Shown here piece by piece: positions 1 to 24,090 of a stretch of DNA of 64,000 bases (position 1 is its first letter; every line of letters starts with the position of its first letter). A program made the position numbers and the translations under genes. The DNA is from a virus, in IMG/VR virus record IMGVR_UViG_3300049793_000099, positions 1 to 64,000 of that record; one strand, written 5' to 3'. The notes beneath the pieces are model-generated. The model saw nothing but the letters and a program-made list of their open reading frames with translations. It was not told the origin of the DNA and ran no database searches.

Positions 1-773
1 AGAACAAACGTTTCAAGCTTTCTAAGAGTTTGTTCATGAATATCTTCAACAATTATTAATAATGAATTATTAGATTGTTGTGTTAATTCTAATATATTTC
101 TAAAGTTTTCTAATTTTTCTAATTTACCATCAATAACTAAAGTATTGACATTTGTAAATTCACAAGTTCCTTTAGATTGGTTTGTAATAAAATGTTTAGA
201 AAAATAACTTATTGGAAGCGACATTCCTGGTAAAGTATCTAATACATCTTCAGTATTAGAACTTTCTTCAATTTTAACTATATCAGAATGGTTATAAGCT
301 TGTTGAATAAGTTCACCAATCTGTAAATCGTTATTAGCAGATATACTAGCAACATGTTTAATATCCTCATGTTTTAATTCTCGTGAATTGAGTTTTAATT
401 GTTTAATTACTTTAGGTATAATTTCATCAAAAGCTTTATTAATATCTATAGATTTAAAATCTTTTAAATTATTAACAAATGCTGTAGCTAATACTATTGA
501 AGTTGTTGTACCATCCCCAGCATCTTCTACAGTCTTTTTAGCAACCTGTTTAATTAAATTTGCACCAATATTCTGTAATGGATCTTTAAATGTAATTTGT
601 TCCGCAACAGATACACCATCTTTAGTTATAATATATTCTCCATATTTATTTTTATTAGGTATAATGACAGTAGCTCCATTAGGTCCCATCGTGCTAGAAA
701 CCGCTTTATTTAAATCATTAATACCTTCTATAATCTTATTTCTTGCTTCTTTTCCAAAATGTAATTCTTCCAT
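1..773 (-). CDS. groL: GroEL-like chaperonin, N-terminal part (runs off the window)
   Basis: This is the first 257 residues of a phage-encoded group I chaperonin, an ATP-driven folding chamber. Reading the minus strand from the ATG at 773 shows the hallmark equatorial segments: TMGPNGATVII near residue 28, ITKDGVSVAEQI near residue 48, and the nucleotide-binding EDAGDGTTTS near residue 83. The start overlaps the stop of the upstream endonuclease gene as TAATG. The reading frame is still open at position 1, so the rest of the gene lies outside the window. A possible GroES-like gene sits 1.4 kb upstream in the same orientation. Its likely job is folding phage virion proteins, but substrate choice is inference. 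Confidence 0.9.
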   Translation of the reverse strand, partial: MEELHFGKEARNKIIEGINDLNKAVSSTMGPNGATVIIPNKNKYGEYIITKDGVSVAEQITFKDPLQNIGANLIKQVAKKTVEDAGDGTTTSIVLATAFVNNLKDFKSIDINKAFDEIIPKVIKQLKLNSRELKHEDIKHVASISANNDLQIGELIQQAYNHSDIVKIEESSNTEDVLDTLPGMSLPISYFSKHFITNQSKGTCEFTNVNTLVIDGKLEKLENFRNILELTQQSNNSLLIIVEDIHEQTLRKLETFV

Positions 774-1336
774 TATAAATATTTAAAATTAAAATTTTTT
801 GCATGTTTCAATGACCAAGTAAAAGATCCATATATTTTATTAATACTTAATGAAGCTTCTTTAACACTATTAAATATATCACCTGTAATTGTGTTAATAA
901 CTTTTTTAGAATTTGGATTATCTGATAAAAAGAATTTACCTTCCTTAGCTTTTCTCATTTTTTCTTTACTTTCATTAGAAACAAATTTATTTCTATGAAA
1001 ATTACCTATTTTATTTCTAGTTTCTTTTGATGGACTACATCCTTTTGAACCATCACCACCATTAGTTAAATTAGCAAGAGGTCCAGTTTTTAAATCAATT
1101 CTACCATATTCAGAAATTAATAATATTTCTAATTCACAAGCATCTTCCCAGGTTAAATTTTCTGCTAATATTTCTACTTGATAACTTGTTTTATTTACAA
1201 TATCGTTCCATATTTTATTTCTTTTAGCTGTGTCTTTAGAATAAGCTCTTTTTAAATAACCCATTCCTATATAAAATATTTCATTATTATCTAACCTTTT
1301 ATGTCTATAAACAACTTTATTATTTTCTTTTCTCAT
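773..1336 (-). CDS. Free-standing GIY-YIG homing endonuclease
   Basis: The 187-residue protein starts with a GIY-YIG-type core (VYRHKRLDNNEIFYIGMG, residues 9-26). Two short NUMOD3-like DNA-binding repeats follow (SKETRNKIGN and SNESKEKMRKAKEG), then a NUMOD1-like C-terminus (KKVINTITGDIFNSVKEA). This layout is that of Seg-type mobile endonucleases of phages, which cut related genomes and spread by repair. It lies between groEL and an unknown gene, overlapping both by single-base or TAATG junctions, so it is not inside a visible intron. It may be a selfish insertion into the operon. Target site unknown. Confidence 0.85.
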   Translation of the reverse strand: MRKENNKVVYRHKRLDNNEIFYIGMGYLKRAYSKDTAKRNKIWNDIVNKTSYQVEILAENLTWEDACELEILLISEYGRIDLKTGPLANLTNGGDGSKGCSPSKETRNKIGNFHRNKFVSNESKEKMRKAKEGKFFLSDNPNSKKVINTITGDIFNSVKEASLSINKIYGSFTWSLKHAKNFNFKYL

Positions 1337-6086: not shown

Positions 6087-6635
6087 TTATTTATTTAAAT
6101 TGTTAATTTTCAATCTTTCGAAATCTTTTCTATATAAAACTACATCATCTCCTTCTAATATTCTTTTAATTTCTTTAGGATTGAGACCTAGTTCTTTATA
6201 TTTAGAAACCCAGTTATCATTTTGCTTTTTAAGTTGTTCTATTAAAATAGTATAATCTAACATAGTTTTTCTAAAACTACCTTCGATAGATCTATCACCT
6301 AAATGAAATAATATCCAATCCAAATCTTCACACAATATAATCTCTTTCTTACATTCAAATAAAAGAAAAGTTCCTGCTGATGCAATATAACCAGTTAGAT
6401 ATATTTTAATATCTGGATGATTATTAATAAAATGCAATAGTATTCTCATTGCATGTGGATTACCACCAATAGTTGTAAAAAATAAATCAATTGCTTTATA
6501 TTCAGTTAATTTATCAATTAATTCTTGTACTGTTTCAGAATCTATTTCGTTTTCGAAATGATGTACATATCTTTGAATTTCTTCTGATGATTCTAATTCA
6601 TCTAACAAAGCATTTATTAAATCTTCCTTCACCAT
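6087..6635 (-). CDS. ClpP/S49-like serine protease
   Basis: A 182-residue protein of the ClpP fold. Residues 53-60 (FTTIGGNP) match the oxyanion strand, GYIASAGTF places the nucleophile at Ser86, and WILFHLGD gives His111. The order and spacing are those of ClpP-type peptidases. In phages such proteins act as head-maturation proteases or as free proteolytic chambers. Being next to phoH and near the chaperonin, rather than beside a portal gene, favours a quality-control or takeover role here, but that is inference. Translation begins 25 bases after a strong host-type promoter. Confidence 0.85.
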   Translation of the reverse strand: MVKEDLINALLDELESSEEIQRYVHHFENEIDSETVQELIDKLTEYKAIDLFFTTIGGNPHAMRILLHFINNHPDIKIYLTGYIASAGTFLLFECKKEIILCEDLDWILFHLGDRSIEGSFRKTMLDYTILIEQLKKQNDNWVSKYKELGLNPKEIKRILEGDDVVLYRKDFERLKINNLNK

Positions 6636-11296: not shown

Positions 11297-11331
11297 AACC
11301 ACTGGAATTAATAATTAGTTCTAGTGGTTTT
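11297..11331 (+). terminator. Hairpin terminator before the tmRNA
   Basis: AACCACT and AGTGGTT arms (about 11297-11303 and 11323-11329) with a short extension pair around a 14-base loop and are followed by TTTATAAT. A second hairpin, TCACAT/ATGTGA (11260-11290), precedes it. Together they separate the 216-aa gene from the tmRNA. Confidence 0.6.
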
Positions 11332-11347
11332 ATAATAAAATAAATAA

Positions 11348-11710
11348 GGGGGTGACAGGTATTGATACGTGCATAATAATTATATAATTCAGCAGAAATA
11401 GGTGAAAGTTCATTAAATTGAACATTGTTGAAATGACAAAAATCAAATAGTTGCCAATATGCAAGTAGTTCATAACATCTTAAACGGTGGAACTATTGAA
11501 GCTAAATCTGATATTATCTTAGATAAATTAGAATTAGCAGCATAATTAAATAGATTAGAGTAATCTAATCGAACTCAAACTATAGAGTAATTTAGTATTT
11601 CTCCACATTTAGTATTATTTAAGGGAGATTAAAGATTAAAATATACAATAAGCTGTATAAAATTATATATTAAAAGTAAAGTAGACCGGACTTCAATGTC
11701 CGCACCTCCA
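11348..11710 (+). ncRNA. ssrA: tmRNA with a 30-residue tag frame
   Basis: This RNA rescues stalled ribosomes. The 5' end GGGGGTG (11348-11354) pairs with CACCTCC (11703-11709) to make the tRNA-like acceptor stem. GACAGGTATTGATACG follows in the place of the conserved D-loop region, and a T-arm with TTCAAT lies at about 11690-11700. The expected ATAGTTGCC resume context appears at 11448-11455. The tag read from GCC at 11453 to TAA at 11545 has 30 residues, starting ANMQVVHN and ending KLELAA, a ClpXP-type degradation end. Total length (363 nt) is normal, the tag is long. The 3' CCA is not encoded exactly (ACTA). Confidence 0.85.
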
Positions 11711-11713
11711 CTA

Positions 11714-12400
11714 ACTAACTAATTATTAATTAGTTATAAAGAAAGCTGTTACTTGAGTTAGCACTAGGACAGTAACTATTATCAGAGGAAGCTAATCTCT
11801 TGGATAATCCTGCAGGTTGTGACCAGTACACATAAAAAGACTTCTACCAGTTAGAATAAGTATACACCGTTATGGTTAAGTTCTGACATTTTTTTAAATA
11901 AATAAAATCAAAAATAAAACAGTCCGTGTAAACTGTGAATAAATAATACTTAGTGCAAATGTCTAGCACCCTTATCAATAGATGTAACAATTATAAGCAT
12001 TTATAATCAAGTATTAGAGATGTTTCAGAAATGAATTATAACAAATCGAGAAATAGATTATAATGTAAGCATAAAACTTATAATTGGGGAAATATAAATT
12101 GACAACTTACAGTGTTATTTTATAAAAATTATAAATAAAAAATTAAATTCCAATTATTAATATGCGAAATAAAGTGTCCTTAAATGGTCAATAACTGAAT
12201 AATAATTATATAATGTTGCTAGGCTTGTAACCTAGAAATGGAGGTTTAAATCCTCGTGCTACAACTCAGAAATAGTGAGCATTAACATAATAATATAATT
12301 ATTGAAAAGGTTAAATATTACATAAGTAAAACTAAATCTGATATTCTTAAATGAATACAAAACCTATTGTGGAATAATAGTAAGCAATAGTTATAAATAT
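11714..12400 (+). ncRNA. Non-coding region with several hairpins, no gene recognised
   Basis: No credible coding frame is present in these 690 bases between the tmRNA and a strong terminator. Visible helices include AACTAATT/AATTAGTT (11719-11744), GTTACT/AGTAAC (about 11761-11788), and ATTATC..AGAG/CTCT..GATAAT (about 11790-11816). A compact tRNA-like hairpin pair lies at 12212-12262. GACT near 11840 and AGTCC near 11938 could pair like group I intron P7, but the rest of the core is not clear. One or two structured RNAs are likely. Confidence 0.4.
12212..12262 (+). tRNA. tRNA-like element (anticodon and T arms only)
   Basis: CTAGG-CTTGTAA-CCTAG (12219-12235) is a perfect 5-bp anticodon arm with U33 and anticodon UGU (Thr). 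A 5-base spacer and a T arm GAGG-TTTAAAT-CCTC (12241-12255) follow. What should be the D arm and a matching 7-bp acceptor are missing: upstream is plain AT sequence, and only AATGTTGC could pair weakly with GTGCTACA. It may be a degraded tRNA-Thr, an element of a larger RNA, or a D-armless tRNA. Confidence 0.35.
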
Positions 12401-21910: not shown

Positions 21911-24090
21911 ATGAGTGAAAATAAAATAAGTCTTTTTGAAAGAGCTTATAAAAATATTGTAGAAAAGAGAAAAAGAGTATTATTAGGAAAAATAAATTGT
22001 ATTCCTTTAGGATTTCCTAGATTTGAAAATGAATTACCTGGTATTGAACAAGGTAAAAATTATTTGATAACTGCTAACAGTAAGGTAACTCTTTAAAATA
22101 ATTAAAAAAATAATATAAAATAAGCGTTAAATAGTTGGGATTTTAAATAAAAAAATAGTTTATCTTTGTGGTAAATTAAAAAATTATTTATATGCAAATT
22201 ATTAAACCAAAAGAAAATTCAGGAATTTATTGTATTATTAATACTTTCAATAACAAACGTTATGTCGGAAGTTCAATTAATTTATATATGAGATTACAAG
22301 TACATAGAAGTATGTTAAGAAAAAATTATCATCAAAATAGAAAACTTCAAAATTCTTGGAATAAATATTCTGAAGAAAGATTTGATTGTTATATATTAGA
22401 ATATTGTTCTGAAGAATTATTGATAACTCGAGAACAATATTATATTGATAATTTAAAACCTGAATATAATTTAGTTTTACAAGTAGAACGAAATATATTA
22501 AGTAAAGAATCTAGATTATTGCAATCAGAAACTCGTAAAAGAAGAATTAAATCAGGAGAAATAAAACTTTCTTGTGAAAAAATAATTTATCAATATGATT
22601 TAGAAGGTACTTTTTTAGAAAAATACGATAGTATTACAAAAGCATGTATTATAAATAATATTCATCAATCTACAATTTGTAGATTTTTAAATAATACTTA
22701 TAGAAAAGGAGGAAATTATTTATGGTCGTTAGAATATAAAGAAAAATTAGACCCTTATATTAGACTTAGACATGATACAGGTAAATTACACAAACCTGTT
22801 CAAATTTTAGAAGACGGAATCATTGTTTTAGAATTTGGATCTTTTAAAGAATGTGCTAAATATTTTAATACTTATTCAACATGTATTTCTTATGCGATTA
22901 AAATTAACGCTGTTTTTAGAAAAAAATATAAAATTATTTTAAAACCTGCCTAGGACAATGGTAACATTGTACCATGCACATCTGAATATCGGTGAAGCCT
23001 TATCGTAAAGACGATGGTAATACCGAGGCATAGGGAGTAAAGTTCCAGCCGTAGAGACTAGATGCAGATGCTCCTATAGAAATATAGGATGAAGATATAG
23101 TCCAGACCACAAAACATTAAATTGGTAATGAAAATTATAGTGGTATGAGGAAAAAGTCAAATTACAGATTGGATATTTCTTTATAATACAATACAACAAG
23201 TTATTGATAAAGGTTTAGATATTAGATTAAAAATCTTCTATTTTACTTTAGAAATGACCGCTGAACAGAAGATGTTATCCGCATTTTCAAATATTCTTTA
23301 TGTTAAAGAAGGTATTCGCATATCTCCTAAAGATTTAAGATCTACTAAAGCAGACAATGTATTATCTCAAGAAATATTAAATATTATAAGTAAATACGAA
23401 CCTTATTTTAAAAAAATAGAAGAAGTTGTTGAATTTATTGATGATATTCGCACAGGATATGGAATTTATATAACAATAAGAGATTATGCTTTAGCTAATG
23501 GTACAATCCATAAACGAAAAATTGAAACTAAACCAGGAGTGTTTATTGAAGTTGAAGACTATTATGAAGCAAATGATCCTGAAGAATATGTAATGATAAT
23601 TATCGATCACTGTTCTTTAATAAGTCCTGCTAAAAATTATGAAACAGGTTTACCTATGACTTTACATGAATCAATAGGAAAACTTAGTTCCGATCATCTT
23701 ATTAAACTTAGAAATAGATTTAAATATATTTGTGTAGTAGTTCAACAACAAATGGCAGGACAAGAAAGTGTTGAAAATAAAAAGTATAATAAACTTAAAC
23801 CTTCTTTAGATGGTCTAGCAGATAATAAAACTACACAAAGGGATTTTGACTATATACTTGGACTTTTTAGTCCTTTTAGGCATGAAATTCCTGAATATAT
23901 GGGTTATGATATTCATAAGTTTAAAGATCAAATTAGATTTCTTGAAATATTAGGAGGTCGTGAAGGCGGTGGCGGAACAATTTGTCCATTATATTTTGAT
24001 GGAGCAGTAAATTATTTCAAAGAATTACCTTTACCAAACGATCCAGAATTAAATAAAGTTTATGAGTTTATGAAAAATATTAAAAAATAG
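21911..24090 (+). CDS. dnaB: DnaB-type replicative helicase, split by a group I intron
   Basis: Exon 1 is 21911-22086 and exon 2 is 23148-24090. Joining them gives a 372-residue protein and restores the Walker A motif, ANSKVGKS at residues 55-62, with the split codon GT|A for Val59. Exon 2 then gives FYFTLEMT (helicase H2), MIIIDHCSLI (Walker B) and VVVQQQM (H3). The RecA-like C-terminal domain is present but no full N-terminal DnaB domain, a shortened form common in phages. The helicase would unwind DNA ahead of PolB with the primase at 27329. Without splicing the product stops three codons past residue 58. Confidence 0.9.
22161..22168 (+). promoter_or_regulatory. Bacteroidota-type -7 promoter inside the intron
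   Basis: TATCTTTG matches TAnnTTTG exactly and lies 23 bases before the endonuclease ATG. TTG at about 22137 lies near but slightly far for a -33 box. It would let the endonuclease be made independently of dnaB transcription. Confidence 0.5.
22192..22953 (+). CDS. Intron-encoded GIY-YIG homing endonuclease
   Basis: A 253-residue endonuclease with GIY at residues 11-13, YVGSS at 24-28 and the catalytic Arg at 34, followed by the helical part of the GIY-YIG domain ending in NLKPEYN. The middle and C-terminal parts contain NUMOD1-like repeats that include IYQYDLEGTFLEKYDSITKA and VQILEDGIIVLEFGSFKE. It would cut intronless dnaB alleles and drive intron spread. It lies wholly inside the intron, between the 5' end and the catalytic core, with its own promoter. 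Confidence 0.9.
   Translation: MQIIKPKENSGIYCIINTFNNKRYVGSSINLYMRLQVHRSMLRKNYHQNRKLQNSWNKYSEERFDCYILEYCSEELLITREQYYIDNLKPEYNLVLQVERNILSKESRLLQSETRKRRIKSGEIKLSCEKIIYQYDLEGTFLEKYDSITKACIINNIHQSTICRFLNNTYRKGGNYLWSLEYKEKLDPYIRLRHDTGKLHKPVQILEDGIIVLEFGSFKECAKYFNTYSTCISYAIKINAVFRKKYKIILKPA

Follow-up and report, generated by a model that had tools for sequence, protein, structure and literature searches.

A long-tag tmRNA family in flavobacterial phages, with a conserved tag core that may be read by a host factor

Phage-encoded tmRNAs are already known. One survey, covering 18,146 phage genomes, counted them in 402, and the methylophage Melnitz carries a tmRNA that is thought to act during infection, as is proposed here, although it is a two-piece, riboswitch-linked molecule for which the accessible text describes no long conserved tag (PMC9004378). 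According to the accessible text of the 2025 tmRNA database paper, the commonest tag length is 10 residues and phage origin applies to 79 of 97,179 unique sequences, with no long phage tag described there (PMC11915505). The tmRNA of phage Calle was annotated and counted by Bartlau et al., whose accessible text gives neither a full tag length nor a core (PMC8776804). In the literature searched, judged by titles and the starts of abstracts, nothing was found that describes long, conserved tags in phages. The gut crAss phages cr10_1, cr50_1, cr114_1, and cr125_1 (Suoliviridae) and Chryseobacterium phage MA9V-3 have tmRNA genes too, but these are permuted according to ARAGORN and have tags of 13–17 residues without the core described below. 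Since the Suoliviridae gut phages have short tags and permuted tmRNAs, a long tag is not needed by crAss-like phages generally.

Among bacteria, the closest described system is the one-piece tmRNA (ssrA; RF00023) of Flavobacteriaceae, which resembles the molecule described here in its acceptor with a G3-U70 pair, D-domain, P2 helix, and T-arm. That a protease may recognize a longer tag as a signal has a precedent in Mesoplasma and Mycoplasma; Ge and Karzai are said to have linked the extended Mesoplasma tag to Lon in 2009. As the accessible text on these bacteria has it, the extended tag is read by Lon and ends NYAFA (PMC9382460). That tag is bacterial, whereas ours is encoded by a phage and ends ELAA; an identity with the Lon-read Mycoplasma type was rejected because the NYAFA end is absent. 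In this work, we describe a tmRNA gene in a stretch of viral DNA of 64,000 nucleotides (hereafter, the window), which forms part of a 96,910-base virus record (IMGVR_UViG_3300049793_000099). What emerges is a family of phage tmRNAs with a long tag carrying a core conserved at the protein level.

The virus has dozens of proteins in common with Cellulophaga phage phi14:2, which is placed in Crassvirales, Steigviridae, Asinivirinae; it is a phi14:2-like crAss phage, a virus of Bacteroidetes-type bacteria. The element at 11348–11710 of the window (plus strand) is a genuine one-piece tmRNA. The gene runs from the 5′ end of the acceptor to the discriminator A; CCA is not encoded, and CTA stands next. 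The 5′ strand of the acceptor stem, GGGGGTG (11348–11354), forms 7 of 7 pairs with CACCTCC at 11703–11709, to which the discriminator A at 11710 is attached. The stem includes a G3-U70 wobble, a mark of alanine tRNAs; the script that located the ends favoured this pair, and the acceptor position is nonetheless fixed by the pairing and the T-arm. Besides the D-domain, there is a long P2 helix, whose 5′ strand (11381–11393, ending CAGC) pairs in the joined fold with 11652–11655 and 11661–11669 of the 3′ strand (11652–11669, with a bulge in between). The T-arm, CGGAC-TTCAAT-GTCCG at 11687–11702, has a stem of 5 bp and a loop of 6 bases (TTCAAT) versus the usual 7-base TTCRA; 6-base loops are found in L012 and L046 too. 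An open tag frame ending LELAA lies between the two tRNA-like halves. A permuted (two-piece) tmRNA, in which the 3′ half of the tRNA-like domain would precede the 5′ half, was ruled out, as the order in the window is 5′ piece, tag, and 3′ piece. When joined, the halves fold at −28.7 kcal/mol; shuffling the 3′ half gave a mean of −15.4 (SD 3.1), and 0 of 200 shuffles were as low. Just 5′ of the gene (11299–11327, plus strand), a terminator-like hairpin is visible by eye (CCACTGGAA..TTCTAGTGG, then TTTTAT), and a similar stretch lies upstream of the tmRNA in L006, L016, and L027.

Standard tools largely overlook this gene. With default settings, ARAGORN reports no tRNA or tmRNA in the 64-kb window, and Rfam at gathering scores gives no match there. 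Under relaxed settings (-ps80, -ps90), ARAGORN calls a tmRNA at 11348–11710, while -ps50 gives 21 further candidates besides in the 4.5-kb stretch supplied. A covariance-model search, proposed as a check in a preliminary description made from the letters of the window, was thus negative at the Rfam gathering level, but a permissive RF00023 search aligned the element end to end (1–374) at 9.9 bits (E 0.44), below the gathering score of 47, which is a detection threshold and not a defining trait of tmRNA. On the window alone, with misses at default and matches under permissive settings, a tmRNA would therefore be plausible but not secure. The relatives change this picture. RF00023 passes its cut-off in 9 of the 21 related phage records searched, and a model of the 5′ module (R1), built from 35 relatives without the window, has a single match on both strands of the 64 kb, at 11348–11445 (30 bits, E 2.6e-8). 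R1 is a sequence-only model, because RNAalifold did not yield a single consensus pair when applied to this module. The acceptor, P2, T-stem, fold energy, and R1 match bear out the preliminary claim of a phage tmRNA at this place.

Within its family, the window copy stands out. Upstream of the tag, its relatives retain a small hairpin with compensating changes (CAG/CTG, AGAG/CTCT, CGG/CCG, GCAC/GTGC, CTAG/CTAG, and AGTCA/TGACT); the automatic hairpin scan often took chance TTC/GAG pairing, and the variants were read from alignment and scan together. The window is without the relatives' CAG..CTG hairpin, and alignment and scan place a different one, GTTCA-TTAAAT-TGAAC (11408–11423, plus strand), in its stead. 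A counterpart of it, GTTAC..GTAAC, occurs in L051 and L060 as an additional hairpin. In E. coli, a simple hairpin can replace pseudoknot 1. Plastid tmRNAs, according to the accessible text, have few or no pseudoknots (PMC3985003); since such an element is not universal, we did not count the upstream pseudoknot or hairpin as a defining trait of tmRNA. The loss of the relatives' hairpin, together with the 6-base T-loop, means that the window copy may be weakened. Its R1 score of 30 bits is also far under those of 20 other records (53.9–86.1 bits, these being themselves or near copies in the model), and the Rfam cut-off is not passed. Decay of this copy within a functional family nevertheless seems unlikely to us, as the acceptor forms all 7 of its pairs, P2 and the T-stem are present, and the tag frame is intact, with its core and AA end; moreover, 6-base T-loops recur in L012 and L046, and the replacement hairpin has its counterpart in L051 and L060. 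The window copy may work in a compact form, may be weakened, or may reflect a fault of the assembly.

The tag itself, DKNQIVANMQVVHNILNGGTIEAKSDIILDKLELAA, has 36 residues, and its frame with the stop codon TAA (11543–11545) spans 11435–11545 on the plus strand. The preliminary description had proposed a tag of 30 residues starting ANMQVVHN, with GCC at 11453–11455 as the resume codon. In the relatives, the frame stays open 5′ of ANM as far as a codon of the form G(G/A)N, which follows TAAAY, GAAAT, or TAATT, and the same resume contexts are found in host tmRNAs. From this comparison, we infer that translation resumes 18 bases further upstream, at GAC (11435–11437, plus strand), which stands directly after GAAAT, a context identical in L045 and L046. 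Resumption at GCC after ATAGTT (ATAGTTGCC) was rejected because this is in-frame internal coding sequence: GCC is an internal Ala codon of the conserved core QIVANMQVVHNIL (11444–11482, plus strand), I-V-A lies within the conserved QIVANM, and QIVANMQVV takes up codons 4–12 of the 36. The same QIVANM is encoded by other codons in L012, L022, and L028. The frame and LELAA end of the preliminary reading therefore stand, while its start and length give way to 36 residues from GAC. It had also been anticipated that a true resume codon elsewhere would shorten the frame; the codon does appear to lie elsewhere, but upstream, and the frame becomes longer. With the same frame and stop codon in either reading, the choice of start leaves the C-terminus unchanged, and the degradation-type end (ELAA) is retained as originally described.

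Host tmRNAs offer the most direct comparison. A tmRNA was found at E 1e-20 in 113 of 120 Flavobacteriaceae genomes, and tags were read in 31 (the best 30 of a longer list by score, plus the Lacinutrix tmRNA). A tag of 9 residues, e.g., GENNYALAA, was present in 30 of these 31; in the exception, L103, ARAGORN had read the tmRNA elsewhere and there was no usual tag. The typical host resume contexts are TTTTAAAC or TTTTAATT, each followed by GGC. Host and phage molecules thus share the context TAAAY before GG(C) and a tag ending AA, but differ in the length of the tag, 9 residues versus 36 in the window, and in the core, which a search of 100 host genomes did not find. That the phage tag far exceeds host tags had been noted in the preliminary description, which also suggested that its N-terminal part, unlike host tags, might be a separate signal; the conservation described below makes this plausible.

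We defined the family here as the long-tag tmRNA of flavobacterial phages, with hosts identified for a minority of the contigs. In the window, the 5′ module is matched by R1, and the tag exceeds 20 residues and contains the core QxxANMxxV. A first set of loci comprised 36 distinct tag DNAs of 27–50 residues. As some of these loci had been found by the tag itself, a second set was chosen by the RNA motif upstream of the tag. The motif scan gave at least 120 stretches, with 80 loci among the matches listed, and 39 further loci were read separately. Among the matches listed, 79 of 80 loci have a resume context and an open tag of 24–49 residues (median 35); the remaining one, L187, is apparently a chance match. 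In these independently selected relatives, again among the matches listed, the core Q-x-x-A-N-M-x-x-V is present in 77 of 79 tags, L148 and L179 being the two without it. An AA end is found in 75 of the 79, whereas the others end in VGV (two) or MVA (two). The 39 further loci include 35 complete tags, 34 of them with the core (L254 being the one without), and 4 tags truncated where the locus stops (L227, L230, L231, and L259). Because the tag-reading scripts required GGN or GAN as the first codon, the first residue is G or D (or E) by construction. Across these loci, the long tag presents itself as a trait of the family and not an oddity of the window.

The tmRNA lies near the left end of phi14:2 and is also found in Fipvunavirus phages of Flavobacterium psychrophilum and in many IMG/VR contigs. 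Among 12 records reached only via their DNA polymerase (G002–G013), a long-tag tmRNA is present in 8, which belong to the model by construction; 1 has a permuted tmRNA, and none was detected in 3 (G003, G009, and G012). The permuted molecule, in G008 (L133, 122–753), has a 15-residue tag, ANIFAINNEPLRMVA, and not the long-tag one-piece form, and the DNA polymerase of G008 is 72–73% identical to that of the window phage. L144 (cr128_1, a gut phage of Asinivirinae) contains an apparent tmRNA recognized by eye, with an 8-residue frame, GNTYRAAA, and no ARAGORN call; gut relatives may accordingly have short tags.

The long tag also crosses phage lineages. FpV4 and the window phage have terminase, portal, capsid, and polymerase relatives in common (by annotated phi14:2 gene positions), which makes FpV4 a distant cousin. 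The window phage and phi38:1 (Callevirus, Pervagoviridae), in turn, are nearly unrelated, with only GroEL and a 230-aa gene in common, and still the tmRNA of phi38:1 carries the core, within GNNTNAVNAQIEANMEAVNAILNLEVAVGV. The core of phi38:1 and Calle_1 is AQIEANMEAVNAILN, with the same resume context as in the window, although the tag there has 30 residues and ends VGV. The simplest inference is that the tmRNA was transferred between phages of the same hosts.

Group I introns were observed at the 3′ ends of two long-tag tmRNA genes, apparently in the T-loop (L047, 3241–3465, 95.3 bits; L064, 1868–2093, 82.8 bits), and similar interruptions are visible by eye in L135 near 525 and in L144 near 825. 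Two homing-endonuclease-like genes occur in the window: one at 773–1336 (minus strand), matching PHROG 314, and one at 22192–22953 (plus strand), matching an FpV4 gene annotated as a group I intron endonuclease. Conserved noncoding stretches lie 3′ of the tmRNA at 11745–11895 and 11922–12000, with no Rfam match at gathering; one is in common with L027 and the other (CAGTCCGTGTAAACTG...TTAGTGCAAATGTCTAGCACCC) with L006, L016, L027, and partly L133. A tRNA-like stretch at 12196–12264 scores 22.5 bits (gathering 29) and shows an anticodon loop CTTGTAA by eye, with no default ARAGORN call.

The core bears the marks of selection on a peptide. Its consensus is Q-[IV]-x-A-N-M-x-x-V-x-[NS]-[IL]-[IL], and in 53 distinct core DNAs encoding 41 peptides, among the matches listed, five residues never change: Q, A, N, M, and the later V. 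Met has a single codon, and the codons of other invariant residues vary (4 for A, 2 for N, and 3 for V among the 53). The pN/pS ratio of the core is 0.391 in the tag frame versus 0.923 and 1.524 in the other frames, compared with 0.323 for the last three codons of the tag and 0.649 for the last eight, all values being pairwise and uncorrected for shared ancestry. For 30 VV-type cores of the first set (15 codons), the ratio calculated in the same pairwise way is 0.274, below all 500 column shuffles. These patterns indicate that the core is conserved as protein.

Two alternatives are judged by this evidence. The coding stretch sits within a structured RNA and might be kept for a role of the RNA itself, in structure or pairing, with the peptide irrelevant; the use of several codons for invariant residues and a low pN/pS in the tag frame only make this hardly credible. 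The molecule could also be an ordinary rescue RNA, its extra tag length a tolerated spacer without specific function. The spread in length (24–50 residues), the variable segments flanking the core, and the fact that phage tmRNAs are known in general (PMC9004378, as far as its text is accessible) agree with this, but in a mere spacer one would not expect Q, A, N, M, and V to be fixed, nor protein-level constraint, nor a core kept in Callevirus phages that have almost nothing else in common with that of the window. We consider a mere spacer unlikely.

As to what the core might be, its hydrophobic positions 1, 5, 8, and 12 fit one face of a helix. AlphaFold2, applied to 26 tags, placed residues 2–18 in one helix, with pLDDT values of 83 and 73 for the blocks of the first 20 residues, 55–56 thereafter, and a mean of 68. 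Geometry and prediction weakly suggest an amphipathic helix. A search of 100 host genomes at E 0.05 gave no core-bearing host protein, and hence neither a receptor nor a mimic; in the positive control, 18 of 22 phage records were recovered. In bacterial contigs, 45 pattern matches to the tag gave 0 confirmed tags.

As to what reads the tag, the preliminary description had pointed to a ClpP-like protease and a chaperonin of the phage itself. Both genes exist in the phage. The ClpP-like gene at 6087–6635 (minus strand) matches PHROG 1827, 'ATP-dependent protease' (E 9.3e-7), and has no Pfam match. The GroEL (Cpn60) gene, common to phi14:2 and phi38:1, is present as two pieces on the minus strand (114–713 of the window and 96096–96887 of G000); being cut by both record ends, it suggests a circular genome opened inside GroEL. 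What failed is the link to the tmRNA. The closest family of the ClpP-like gene, phrog_32912, occurs in just one of the 27 related records, namely that of the window, and GroEL is uncorrelated: all 8 GroEL-negative records have a tmRNA, the GroEL-positive G003, G009, and G012 have none, and the GroEL-positive G008 has the permuted one. As neither is co-distributed with the tmRNA, both were rejected as a general reader. The adjoining 230-aa gene (phrog_15656), found in 17 of 29 records, was rejected as a partner as well, being present in the tmRNA-negative G003, G009, G140, and G141 and missing from several positives. Furthermore, a comparison of reading frames (phmmer, E 1e-4) found no protein common to the four long-tag phages, i.e., the window phage, phi14:2, phi38:1, and FpV4, although very diverged or very short proteins could be missed in this way. 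It is thus very unlikely that a phage-encoded protease or chaperone reads the tag, and with no common phage-encoded partner, a reader in the host is the simplest inference.

The tmRNA gene and its family are well supported, and the mechanism is what we infer from them. The best explanation overall, to which we assign a probability of about one half, is a phage tmRNA whose helical tag core docks to a host factor. The phage tmRNA would receive its alanine from the alanyl-tRNA synthetase of the host, and delivery would fall to the host's SmpB, as is to be expected since the phage record encodes none. During infection, stalled ribosomes would take up the tmRNA, and translation would resume at GAC (11435), adding Ala and the 36-residue tag. 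This tag would consist of two parts, the conserved amphipathic helix of the core and the degradation-type C-terminal end (ELAA). The helix would most likely serve as a docking element for a host-encoded factor, such as an adaptor, protease, or chaperone of flavobacteria, and docking would change what becomes of rescued proteins relative to the 9-residue tag of the host.

What that fate would be can be read in more than one way. Because VGV forms the end of two Callevirus tags, the outcome common to the family may be something other than degradation. One could suppose that the tag gives protein fragments a fate other than degradation, or that it is released as a peptide and keeps a host factor occupied, as the core is steadier than the end and is kept in the two Callevirus tags ending VGV and the two others ending MVA. 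Against this, 75 of 79 tags (among the matches listed) have the AA end seen in degradation tags, and constraint is evident in the final three codons (pN/pS 0.32, pairwise); we regard such a fate as improbable. Docking to a host factor combined with a degradation-type end remains our preferred reading.

For the biology of these phages, the finding has several implications. Annotation tools misread long-tag tmRNA genes: of the 38 tag residues in phi14:2, ARAGORN reports only the C-terminal 11, and of the 36 in L006 only the C-terminal 10. Cultured carriers (phi14:2, phi38:1, Calle, and FpV4) make the use of the tmRNA by the phage and the identity of the tag reader directly testable, and proteomic data on phi38:1 infection have reportedly been published. 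Given its roughly 35 residues and a core under selection, the tag suggests that phages add a specific signal beyond rescue, and since the relatives keep the tag core while the host tail has nine residues, the virus may steer the fate of unfinished proteins. Tentatively, and with somewhat less assurance than for docking itself, we propose that ribosome rescue has become a protein-fusion device in several flavobacterial phage lineages, of which some are nearly unrelated. A portable helical docking module of about 15–20 residues, joined to a degradation-type end, would be appended to unfinished proteins in infected cells and read by a host factor. If that is true, selection would keep the tag, and not rescue itself.
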